Shown here one piece after another: positions 22,101 to 55,100 of a stretch of 64,000 nt of DNA. The notes below the pieces were generated by a model. It was not told the DNA's origin. It saw only the letters and a program-made list of their open reading frames with translations, and searched no databases. Each line of letters opens with the position of its first letter. Positions within the stretch are counted from its first letter, which is position 1. The stretch comes from Echinarachnius parma (Eukaryota; Echinodermata; Echinoidea; Clypeasteroida; Echinarachniidae), in contig JBAMJV010001319.1 in the NCBI GenBank assembly GCA_037951105.1, positions 186,001 through 250,000 of the forward strand, written 5' to 3'. The position numbers were made by a program, and so were the translations under genes.

Positions 22101-25100
22101 ACACATGTCCATACAACAAAAATAAAAGACTTTAAATCTTTGACTACGGGAACCGAGTGGGTTATGTACAAAGTCTATGGAGATTTCAGAAACTCGTAGG
22201 GAACCGGTTAATATCCTGAGATCTCCCAAAGGAATACAGCTTTTTTATTCAATAAATTAATAAAAATGTAAGGGTTTACAAAACAATTTAAATTATTATG
22301 TATTTTCCATGAGCACTGCTTCATAATTTTGAAGCTTATTTGATTTTTTTTTTCTTTTCGTTATTTACAAAATATTTTTTATCATTATATTTTCACAAAC
22401 ACTGCAAACGTAATTTAAAAATAAATGTTTTATTAAGGTACAGTCAATCCTGTGTGTAGTGACTACCTAGGGGAAACAAGAAAAGTGGCCACTGTAGACA
22501 GGTGAGGTGACCTCTATCATAGACTAGACTCCATAACATTATTATAACAAAGACGGGTTTGACTGTATTTTGTTTATTTACTTATTTTATTTTTACACGT
22601 GAAAATAATCTGATCTCTTTTTCAGTGAACTGATAACAGATTCTTGGAATTAAATTAAATTTTTTTTGTGCAGATATCTCTGGTCCTTTGAGAACAGGAT
22701 ACTACGAATTGCTGCACGCTCTCCACCTACAAACACACGTCAGTTCCAGGTAAAATGCCTTATCTTATCTTATCGACATCCTTTGATTAAAAAATTGGCA
22801 ATAAGAATTTACTATCATCCCCTTTGTAATGATAGTTGATTTGTTTAATATTGCATTGTGTAAGTTAAGTGTGTTGATGTGTTAATGTGTGCTGGTTTGT
22901 ATTGTATCCTATGACCAGGGTAATATTAAGTGTGAAGCGCTTAATAGCGAGGATATTGTATCATATAATAGGCTAGGCGTTATATAAATCAAACCTATTA
23001 TTATTATTATTATATGCAGGTTAAAGACACAGGATGAGTTCATCATCCCACTATCCGTAGGCTACAAGGAAATGGAAGATGAGGTGGACCTCTCTAGCAG
23101 TATGTCCATCAAGCGAGCCTTGAGTACCAAGAAGAGTGTGTCGATCAGACCACAGCTCAACATGGGACCCTCCGCAGACAGGTTTGTTAGTCTATTGGTC
23201 AATATTCCCTTTAACCCATAATACAGGACAGACTTAATAGTTTACTACAAAATGTATTCTCCATAGACCTACATTTATATAAGCCCGAATATTTTGGGGA
23301 CCAGTCCTGAACAGGTTAATACCTGTAAGGTATCCTGTCCAAGAGATAATGTGGACATCTCTACAGGTATCCTGTCCAAGAGATAATGTGGACATCTCTA
23401 CAGGTATTCTGTCCAAGAGATAATGTGGACATCTCTACAGGTATCCTGTCCAAGAGATAATGTGGACATCTCTAGCAGTATGTCCATCAAACGAGCCGTG
23501 AGTACCAAGAAGAGTGTGTCGATCAGACCACAGCTCAACATGGGACCCTCCGCAGATAGGTCTGTCAGTCTATCAGTCAATATTCCCTCTAATACCTCTA
23601 TGGATTTTCCTGTCCAAGAGATGAAGGGGACATCTCTAACACTACATACTGTATATGAGCATCAAGAGAACCAAAAGACATGAAACCTCAGACAAATTTC
23701 TACTGTTGTGCCCCGTTTTATTTGAGTGTTGCAGTACCAGTATTCACTAATGACTAATAAATCCTTTCCATTAATTTAACTGACTTGAAAGTTCTGGGGG
23801 GGGGGGGGGGGGTGTTACACAAAGAGTTGTGATCAATTGCAAACTTGCGATTAATGGCAACTCTTCATGCAACTCCCCCCCCCTGACCATTTTGTTTGTG
23901 TTGTCATTGTTCATTACAGCAGTCACCAAAGCTTTGGCCAGAGCATGAAGGCTCTCGAGCAAGCCCCGCCCAACTTCAATCTAGCCACCTTGAAACAGCA
24001 CGTCATCCAGTCATTGGGAGAGGCTGTGGCACAGGGCGTGTCCCACTGCCGAGACCCCATTGGTGGAAATTACGATAACCTTTTTGTGTAAGTATGACAG
24101 TGACAATGATGGCGATTTCACTTTTCTTTTTTTTCCCTCTGGTAACCCTTTTTGGGGGCAAGTATGAATCATTTTTTATTGACAATAAGAAAAATAGCGA
24201 AATATATACATATTTACAAAAATAGTATGGAATGAAGAGGTACCAAGCATGGTGGCTTAGTGGTTAGAGCATCTGGCTCTCGCAAATGGATGTCCTGGGT
24301 CCAATCCCTGGGGGGTGTTTCACAAAGATCCTAAGTTGAACTTAACTCTAAGTTGGACTTATCTATTATGGAAAGCCATTTGTAGCCTTGGAATAAAACA
24401 TATTCAAAAGCAAGAATGTAATTATTTTAGACTTTCATAAGTTTTTAGATCAAGAACATGAAATCTACTTGATAATAGAAAATATTATTATGATTTGAAT
24501 TAACATCTTATGCCTTTTATACAAACTTTTCCAAAAAAATAAAAAAAAACACTAACAGCTTTCCATAATTTTTAAGTCAAACTTAGAGATAAGTTCAACT
24601 TAGGATCTTTGTGAAACGCCCCCCTGGCTGGGTAATACCAAAGACATTACAAATAGTATATGCGTTGGTTGCCTTCTAGTAAGGGCCACGGACCGTTATT
24701 AACCCATTCAGGACTGATTTAATTTGCTATAATTTGTATTCTCCATAGACCCTCACTAGTATTTTCTTCACAGACATTTTTTGATTGGTTCTTTTCTGCA
24801 TTTTACCTACCTGTACATTTGAAAATGTATTATTTTATTTTCCCTTTTCAGGCCTTTGTTACAACTTTGTGATGCCCTCCTTGTAATAGGTAAGTTAAAA
24901 GACCGTGATCTGTATATAGCCAAATGCAATATCAGTGTCATTATTATTATTATTATTATTTATTCGACCAAAAAGCATAATACAATGTAAAATACAACAC
25001 AACTATATATGCACATAATACAAAAATACAAGTTACAAGACTGAAGAAAATAGACAAAGAAAATAGTGAGGAGCAGTGTGTGGGCCAGGGTCAGACCTGG

Positions 25101-52100: not shown

Positions 52101-55100
52101 CTCTCTCTCCCCCTCTCTCCTTTTCTATTCTTTTCTCCCTCATTGCTTTGTTTGACATCATCTCTTTCTGTCTCTATCCATTCTCTCTCTCTCTCCCTCC
52201 CCCCTGTTACATGTTATCATATCATATATCCCTTAATTGCTTTGTTTAACATCTCTTTCCCCCTCTGTCTACCCTTGTTGTTGTGTCCATCAGACTCAAT
52301 TCTATGTTGGATGCGGACGGACTGAGCAGAGGCCACAGTACGATAGAGAAGAGGTTTGCCTTCAACCTCCTGGACAAGCTGCTACACTACGTTGACAAAT
52401 CCCAGGCCAACCTCAAGCCCAACAGGAGGAACCAAGAGGGTGAGTGGAAATCAAATGCAACATATTATTTTGTATTTCCTACATCATTACAGTGGGGTAG
52501 CATGGTCGGACTGATTGGGGGAGGGGGGGGGGGGGTTATTGGTAAATTATTGGGGGCACATCTTATGTATTTCTTTGTTTTTTTTCCCCCCCAAAAGTCC
52601 CCTTATGTTTCCTCTTGTTGTTTTCTACAAATTATTGGGGGAGGGGGCATGTGCCCCCCCCCCCTCCTTGTTGCTACGCCACTGCCACATTATTTATGCA
52701 TTTTTACTCCATTAATCATTTATCATATGCATCATAATTTTGATATTCCTTGGTTTTGCTTCATTTATTTCCCTTGATTGAGCACTATTTGAAATGTGGT
52801 GATATTAAAAGATAAAACTAAATATCTGTCCCTCGTTTTAGGTTGTGTATAACCTTTGTAAAGTGTAACAAATGTTCATTAACTTTCATCGTAAAATGAA
52901 ACCCATGATTATTATTATAATTGATGATATTTTCTATATAGAGTACCACAAAGTGTGACATCAATACTATTAATTTCCTTGGGTAATGGTTCTAACCAAT
53001 GTCAGGCAAGCCACAATGTGTGACCTAGCAGTTGCTAAGAAGGCAATCGTCCAGCTCCGACCTACTACCAAAAGCCCATAATCGAAGGACAAATTGTTAA
53101 GAACCATTGCTATGTTATCACAAAGGAATGTGATATCACTACTCCAATACTCTAATGACTTGTTTTCATAGTAAACCTACTTAGTAATGAAATAGCAGCA
53201 GGGTTTATTATTACTTTTATACAGATTTTAATCAAGGTTTTAATGCGTTTCTCTCTCCAGCCTTCAATAGAATGAAAGAAATGGGCAGAGCTGACAGAGG
53301 CTACAAGTTCTTTGCAAAGGTGAGAGTGTCTCGTTTTATTAGCTCATCCGGCCCGAAGGGCCCGATGAGCTTATGCCATGGCGTGGCGTCGGTCGTCCGT
53401 CCACAGTTTTCAAAATGCTTCTTCTTCGTTATTTTTCAACCGATTTTGATTCTGATTGTTTCATAAGATAGGGCTAGGAGGGGGATTTAAAACTTCTACA
53501 CAGAATCGTGAAATTCATTATCTATGGTAATTTATGCAAATTTTGATTCTGATTGTTTCATAAGATAGGGCTAGGAGGGGGATTTAAAACTTCTACACAG
53601 AATCGTGAAATTCATTATCTATGGTAATTTATGCAAATTTATTCGAAATCACAAAAAATGCTTCTTCTCCTTCATTTCTCGACCGATTTTGATTTGGTTT
53701 GCTTTATCTGGTAGAAGAGCTAACTTTGGTACACTAAACTTCTACACAGAATTTTGAAATTTTTCTCCATTCATTAATTATGGTAATTTTTAATTTTTCA
53801 ATTTTGTTATTTTTATATTTTTTTTATTTTTTTTAATTTTATTTATTTATTTATTTATTTATTTTATTTATTTTTTTAATTATTGTTTTATTTTTATTTT
53901 TTATTTTTTTCCCCATGTCCCTTCCGGGGCGTCAAATTTATATTTTTTTCACTCTAATTTTTTTTATTTTTTTTTTTTATGTCCCTTCCAGGGCATCAAA
54001 TTTTTATTTTTTGACCAGTTGAAAAGTGTACCACATGAAATTTGCGATATTTGATGTTGCGAGATGGCGGATGAGCGCTACGTCATTGACGTTCTGGTTC
54101 AAATTATCAAATTCAAATTATCCTCTGGAATAACGTCGAGTGTGTTATAATCAATTGGCTGTTGGCAAGATAATTTGACATTTGTTTAATATTTAACGTT
54201 CACACATCCAGTCACACATCCAGCTGGGGGGCGGGGCATGCCCCCCTCCAATAAATTGATATAAAAATACAAAAATCATAGAGTGATGACTTTAATTGTC
54301 CCCCTAAAGCCCACCCCACACCACATGATCTAATTCTGATCTGGAAACCAAATTGGGATCTGGACTATACTCCATGAATTAAATATGCACATTTTGTTTG
54401 AAATGTGCATGTCTTGTTGTAGTTCAGATATGCAGAATGTCTGATCTAATCGGATCGCATGGTGAGTGGTTGACCATATGGTGCTCTGTTTTAGAACCTA
54501 TTCCCTTTTCAATATTACTGATGTTTTGTTTCAGGTTGTGATCCCCCTGATAGATAAGTACTTCCAAGCACATGCCACATACTTTGTGCTCTACCCTGCC
54601 ATCAATCAGGCCGGCTGCTCAGGAGGGGCTCCGATTGGATAGGATTGGATTGTGTAGTTAGCGATGAGCTTAAAACAGTTAAGGCTCTTTAATACTAATT
54701 CCTTTTCAATATTTCTGATGATGTTTTCAGGTTGTGATCCCCCTGATAGATAAGTACTTCCAAGCGCACGCTGGATACTTTGTGCCCGACCCTGCCGTCA
54801 ATCAGGCCGGCCGCTCAGGGGGGGCTCACACCAGGGAGAAGGAGATGGTCGCCAGGTAGGAACCCGTTTTCTTCCAAAATGTGACCGGATCGATCCAGCA
54901 AAACGTGGCACTTGGTGGCAAAAATCAAAATGAAGATTTTCAAGCCATTAGAACTAAGGCCTCACTCATCATAAACTTTCCTTATGATGCCTTATTCTAA
55001 AAAAAAATCAGCAAAGCTATGATTGTTTCAATTTTACTGACATAATTCTTGAACAAACATGTACATTATTTGGAGTTATATTGTCCACTTCTTAAAAAAA

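Follow-up and report, generated by a model that had tools for sequence, protein, structure and literature searches.

Exon copies within one gene have been described in several animals. The portion of the survey by Ivanov and Pervouchine (2022, PMC9013439) available to us puts the share of exonic nucleotides with homologs at ≥80% identity at approximately 2% for human, compared with 0.08% and 0.06% for fly and worm, respectively. Exonize (PMC12343006), a study of 20 genomes, according to the accessible part of its description, recognizes degenerate and partial exon copies as well, and these occur in more genes than full-exon duplications. Furthermore, insect ryanodine receptors (RyRs) have mutually exclusive exons, including a pair in the second SPRY domain (SPRY2), as stated in the consulted part of the report (PMC6026295). 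Here we describe a stretch of 64,000 nucleotides from the echinoid Echinarachnius parma, hereafter the window (positions 186001-250000 of contig JBAMJV010001319.1, referred to as C1318, in a genome of 1.2 Gb), in which many exons of an RyR gene stand beside truncated copies of themselves. In our judgment, the probable cause is that short stretches of DNA are duplicated locally and in tandem throughout the genome, leaving the parent exon whole.

The window is the central part of the RyR gene (12429..59843, + strand), identified by a Protein Data Bank (PDB) match of the open reading frame 12441-13127 to solved structures of RyR1, RyR2, and RyR3, by spliced alignment, and by tblastn with the Lytechinus variegatus RyR protein P0001. 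Exon order was obtained by spliced alignment with an RyR2 stretch, and exon borders are models from protein alignment. Thirty-seven exon positions were modelled, or 38 exons if the alternative pair E18a/E18b is counted as two. Within the protein collection, P0001 comes closest (92% over an 83-residue exon stretch); across 37 of the 38 exons L. variegatus RyR reaches 77%, versus 59-67% for the five other echinoderm proteins compared. On C1318, RyR matches extend from near 135 kb to near 296 kb. P0001 has 4509 residues, and beyond residue 3831 (its final 678 residues) no match was seen on the part of the contig examined, including the DNA beyond 296147 to 309114; the channel-end exons either lie elsewhere in the assembly or were missed.

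To look for copies, we aligned every modelled exon (38 in all) with the 1.2 kb before it and the 1.2 kb after it (76 tests), 60 shuffles serving as the comparison; a copy was termed strong when its score was at least 44 and higher than all shuffles. Strong partial copies adjoin eight of the 38 exons, i.e., E8, E12, E20, E22 (both sides), E25, E26, E28, and E35, and self-BLAST of the window recovers them; the copies that an earlier note on this DNA had seen at these exons are thus real. Tandem Repeats Finder (TRF) reported arrays at E12, E20, and E28 and at none of the other exons. The parent exons were placed by spliced alignment and tblastn with P0001, except E20, which was placed by tblastn with P0001 and echinoderm protein comparison. 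Parents and copies are as follows.

23020..23181, + strand, parent exon E8
23328..23474, + strand, minisatellite of four 37-bp units between E8 and its copy; the unit has about 20 bp resembling E8 (by eye)
23455..23559, + strand, downstream copy of E8 (3′ part and donor side), 94% over 105 bp
26512..27072, + strand, upstream of E12, three tandem copies of its acceptor and 5′ part (exon-matching extents in 26580-27004), the first two with a 180-bp unit
27073..27230, + strand, parent exon E12
36759..36833, + strand, weak downstream copy of E19, 71%
37148..37361, + strand, parent exon E20
37362..37910, + strand, E20 array with three more copies of the 3′ part, from 37451, 37669, and 37866, the first two with the donor; 193-197 bp unit
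39066..39132, + strand, copy of the E22 interior, 197 bp upstream
39249..39421, + strand, parent exon E22
39727..39952, + strand, two downstream copies of the 3′ end of E22 with the following intron (exon matches 39727-39758 and 39915-39930)
40339..40385, + strand, weak upstream copy of E23, 206 bp away
41393..41525, + strand, upstream copy of the acceptor and 5′ part of E25 (exon match 41435-41525)
41608..41748, + strand, parent exon E25
42228..42429, + strand, two upstream copies of E26, the nearer (42317-42429) with the acceptor side and 5′ part, the other an older remnant (42233-42262)
42476..42639, + strand, parent exon E26
43990..44500, + strand, upstream of E28, three copies of its acceptor and most of the exon (44057, 44218, and 44406), at spacings of 161, 188, and 206
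44612..44701, + strand, parent exon E28
54483..54631, + strand, upstream copy of the acceptor and 5′ part of E35 (exon match 54535-54631)
54731..54855, + strand, parent exon E35

The copies at E19 and E23, which had been called probable, stand as weaker matches (z 7.5 and z 17, respectively). Three further exons exceeded their own shuffles, namely E4 (21064-21093, z 6), E32 (z 5.4, 19 bp, 50 bp away), and, barely, E9 (z 3.1); because 76 tests give approximately one chance excess, E4 alone was retained as possible. As a control, 388 intron tiles were subjected to the same test and yielded 54 strong tile matches, many of which are the exon copies themselves. By our count, the tile matches include at least seven exon-free places that are not of low complexity (7414, 18132, 21550, 49496, 53412, 55895, and 60171).

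Twenty copies were catalogued in the window. They lie adjacent to the parent exon, on the same strand and in the same gene, as in tandem exon duplication, and all are partial (9 to 96% of the exon), with 71-98% identity to the parent. A complete exon with both splice sites is found in none of the 20; the fullest, those of E28, comprise 96% of the exon without the donor. The strong copies carry the acceptor side at five of the eight exons (E12, E25, E26, E28, and E35) and the donor side at E8, E20, and E22, so that the earlier remark that copies usually carry the acceptor applies to the former exons and not to the latter. All three E28 copies and the weak E4 copy have stops within their aligned parts, and there are frame-shifting gaps in the E12 copies and one E28 copy. 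Neighbouring copies are 135-206 bp apart in 18 of 20 cases by our count, the exceptions being 378 and 339. The copies at E12, E20, E26, and E28 have the look of head-to-tail arrays; at E25, E35, E22, and E8, unmatched spacer lies between the copies.

The flanking intron was duplicated together with the exon part at E8, E12, E20, E22 (downstream), E25, E26, E28, and E35, which rules out processed retrocopies. A shared mobile element is likewise ruled out, since none of the self-BLAST repeat pairs listed joins the array of one exon to that of another; Rfam gave no match at gathering thresholds. Separate origins are indicated because the age and side of the copies vary among exons. The proposal of many independent local duplications, rather than one retro- or segmental event, is therefore borne out by the differing periods, sides, and identities, the copied intron flanks, and the unlinked arrays.

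Copies also occur beyond the window. RyR exons outside it were taken as protein-match spans, and splice sites there were checked for the copy at C1318 165465-165599. Among 92 RyR exon spans on C1318, 22 have a strong copy, including 14 of the 54 outside the window, and six more have a weak copy only. One RyR exon (180270-181813) has eight protein-level matches, parent included, and another has copies at 255002 and 255205. Furthermore, a genome search with the PF12774 (AAA_6) profile, which we take to be a dynein heavy-chain domain, gave 110 matches on 22 contigs. On contig C3447 (79001-84800), the same profile positions recur in rows: 14 copies lie upstream of a full dynein exon, nine at 94-99% and five at 82-84% identity, with units of 184 and 206 bp in a TRF array. 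A TAG is present in 12 of the 13 partial profile rows and in the full row; where checked (two rows), this TAG belongs to the acceptor. In five other dynein stretches, picked for many matches in little DNA and with flanks cut at the stretch ends, strong copies adjoin 9 of 26 exon matches. The ten strong matches there lie 125-194 bp off, except two (382 and 460). The row C6613:162033, itself the copy, was left out, and the rate is slightly favoured because C6613 was already known to hold a copy; possession of copies played no part in the choice of the other four dynein stretches or of the RyR exons outside the window. Dynein and RyR do not differ significantly in rate (P 0.32). A count from the dynein profile table, where overlapping neighbours occur at 13 of 87 grouped exons, was set aside; several of these (e.g., on C9139, C9335, C877, and C979) probably reflect ragged profile ends. 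Other long genes of the same genome thus show such copies too, and the impression that the pattern is peculiar to one gene, at ten exons within about 32 kb, does not hold, given the strong copies at RyR exons outside the window, the dynein matches, and the duplications away from RyR exons. Duplication clusters number 0.18 per kb elsewhere on C1318 versus 0.26 per kb in RyR, and six were found in 40 kb of other contigs (eight 5-kb stretches, four without any).

Merged haplotypes or misassembled reads could produce neighbouring duplicates, and the dynein rows on C9139, C9335, and C877 are nearly identical, probably representing uncollapsed haplotypes or recent duplicates. By contrast, the window copies differ from their parents by 2-30% with a neutral pattern, and two haplotypes would both be constrained. 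The copies form ordered arrays of different ages with short units and truncated exons, and a query of 30000-30600 found, for the part past base 237, no second place among the 40 of 2037 candidates scored. An assembly artefact is accordingly regarded as very improbable.

The copies drift neutrally. We took one copy for each parent side (nine in all) and found 34 synonymous changes against 50 nonsynonymous ones. The nonsynonymous share (50/84, 0.595) fits the 0.60 expected for a free copy and a constrained parent over equal time, which is our own estimate derived from a nonsynonymous share of 0.75, and it is below the 0.75 of wholly free change (P 0.002); with three weak rows added, the count is 70 of 116. 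Comparison with L. variegatus was made for 14 typed rows (E4, E23, the first and third E12 copies, and the smallest remnants being left out; rows of the same array are not independent). At 58 amino-acid differences, the L. variegatus residue is the parent's in 46, the copy's in 6, and neither's in 6. Two of the six cases favouring the copy concern one residue in two E20 copies, which may predate the change in the parent because they retain the residue that the parent altered.

These counts bear on the idea that the copies are working alternative exons, mutually exclusive or cassette, that diversify the channel. The E20 copies with a donor could form in-frame cassettes. In the E26 copy, whose reading frame is open through to the parent, 4 of 11 changes alter an amino acid, fewer than the average (P 0.005 uncorrected), which is not significant after 20 rows. 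The fullest copy outside the window is that at C1318 165465-165599 (region 165465-165811), an upstream copy 95% identical to its parent that comprises nearly the whole exon, with the acceptor kept, the reading frame almost whole, and one of seven changes altering an amino acid. This copy also lacks the donor and hence, like those in the window, is not a duplication of the whole exon and its two splice sites. Taken as a group, the young copies do not combine an intact frame with purifying selection on both members, as mutually exclusive exons do. On the neutral share and the conservation of the parent over the copy, working alternative exons were rejected for that group, and the truncation, stops, and frame-shifting gaps described above are further points against them. 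The truncated copies are presumably not used in splicing, and a function as working exons is considered highly unlikely.

Local tandem duplication of the kind favoured here would proceed as follows. Small duplications would arise often in this genome, in introns and exons alike, more than half of those on C1318 being 130-225 bp apart. Where one breakpoint falls in an intron and the other in an exon, the product would be a whole exon plus a truncated copy with at most one splice site. The whole exon would stay under selection, and the intronic copy would drift, gather damage, and perhaps multiply into a short array. Such duplications would be tolerated because the parent exon remains whole; whole-exon or within-exon duplications would alter the protein and usually be removed. 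Approximately a quarter of the 92 RyR exon spans would thereby be left with a recognizable neighbouring copy. Recent activity is visible in an intron at 53443-53640, where two identical 97-bp copies stand in tandem. In the sole two identical two-copy pairs, the alignment is 101 for an offset of 97 and 266 for an offset of 260; because these pairs extend 4 and 6 bp past the unit, copying was probably by slippage or template switching at short homologies.

A different explanation is that exons attract duplications, for example because of positioned nucleosomes, transcription, or higher G+C content; the unit would correspond to roughly one nucleosome or one Okazaki fragment. Expected contacts between duplication clusters and exons were obtained by shifting the exon map. 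In the window, 9 of 14 clusters touch exons, with 4.0 expected (P 0.012), and within 12.4-60 kb, 9 of 13 do so, with 5.0 expected (P 0.021). Several results weigh against duplication that is indifferent to exons and followed by simple decay. In the whole gene unmasked, 23 of 42 clusters touch exons (11.8 expected, P 0.0002); by position relative to the window, the counts are 7 of 16 on the left (P 0.13) and 7 of 12 on the right (P 0.013), and a stringent search gave 21 of 31 (8.8 expected). A copy of a conserved exon is recognizable approximately twice as long as a free intron pair, and exon pairs were therefore allowed double visibility time; P 0.007 remains. Spacing of 130-225 bp occurs in 18 of 23 exon-overlapping clusters versus 15 of 35 others (hand count), and the RyR exon with eight matches and the dynein exon with 14 copies point in the same direction. 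The copy at 165465-165599, with six synonymous changes and one amino-acid change, suggests that not all copies drift freely. Furthermore, the dyneins are the sole non-RyR genes compared, and the microhomology argument draws on two pairs. Against attraction, when exon letters are masked, clusters at exon edges number 13 of 40 (13.6 expected) and 10 of 25 (8.4 expected), i.e., there is no excess, and intron-only and non-RyR clusters overlap in unit size with those at exons. Because the excess is gone once exon letters are masked, it may be mostly a matter of visibility; masking is a conservative test, so that some real exon preference is possible. Taken together, attraction by exons is regarded as unlikely, and local tandem duplication throughout the genome is retained as the preferred reading.

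One duplicated exon of the window is of another kind. E18a and E18b encode diverged versions of one stretch, at a position that we take to be near residue 2180 of RyR2.

32990..33123, + strand, E18a, the echinoderm form (spliced alignment, protein comparison, and tree)
35037..35229, + strand, E18b, the form common to outgroups (the longer start follows P0001; 35082-35229 was used in the copy tests)

Both are full exons whose donors, GTAAGT and GTGAGT, follow the same codon position, and both have CAG acceptors in phase 0 (by eye). An (AAATTG)n array (region 32795-33123) reaches the E18a acceptor, which is without a pyrimidine tract. Holothuria and Asterias have the a form, and Lytechinus, Amphiura, and Apostichopus have the b form; since the two sea cucumbers have different forms, both exons probably persist in sea cucumbers. 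The 64 annotated proteins listed show a single form each, at a single place. A tree (13 rows, 41 columns) splits a-type sequences and two crinoids from b-type sequences, hemichordates, a mollusc, and RyR2 at 96/100, with Apostichopus on a long branch. A protein search with E18a alone returned nothing, because no more than one candidate shared words with the query. On this sequence evidence, E18a/E18b is probably an old, echinoderm-wide, putative mutually exclusive pair that looks functional. A more ambitious reading would combine it with the young copies: a lineage process would duplicate units the size of a nucleosome or Okazaki fragment, prefer exons, and make trial exons beside at least a quarter of them, and a rare survivor such as E18a would last. 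We regard this as a speculative and rather doubtful extension.

Other repeats were observed in the window. An intronic inverted repeat of approximately 666 bp, 96% identical and with a 318-bp spacer, occupies 57932-58596 and 58915-59580. A dispersed repeat is present in both orientations (16541-16922, 30081-30198, 33722-34011, 38628-38822, and 46611-46986), and its member at 30081 has 39 other genome places among the matches listed. Another dispersed element has five short copies, two of them on the minus strand (22130-22214, 36837-36902, 45274-45360, 51703-51785, and 59888-59961). Finally, a GTGAGT-rich minisatellite at 28198-28527 lies close after the E14 donor GTGAGT and may have grown out of that splice site itself.

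If the rate observed in RyR and dynein holds genome-wide, a large share of the exons of this animal would have dead partial neighbours, far above the human, fly, and worm yardsticks. Exon birth would then be measurable: there would be many exon duplications whose parents are known and whose ages are graded, and the rare success could be set against almost universal failure. On the practical side, gene predictors and short-read mapping may stumble on copies with one good splice site.

Among known systems, minisatellite and satellite arrays share head-to-tail units with this locus (here at E12, E20, E28, and on C3447 by TRF), and they differ in that here the unit includes part of an exon, the copies are few, and the loci are independent. 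Unit lengths near nucleosome size are common to both. Among the literature matches listed, none describes such a pattern in sea urchins, which is not proof of its absence. The insect RyR pair consists of exons used alternatively, as E18a/E18b would be; the consulted part of that report places the insect pair in SPRY2 (PMC6026295), and E18a/E18b lies farther on. With its copies of ≥80% identity, the window gains 1208 bp on its 5700 exonic bp (21%), a figure obtained by methods different from those in the available portion of the survey (PMC9013439), which covers whole genes, as opposed to the exon flanks of one window chosen as remarkable. That portion of the survey, as here, includes same-gene exon copies and unannotated intronic ones among them; those of the window are partial and mostly decaying. 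The partial, inter-boundary, and intronic matches of Exonize, as defined in the accessible part of its description (PMC12343006), are the same class as the window copies. The pattern in E. parma is a variation on known tandem exon duplication, in a partial and decaying form.

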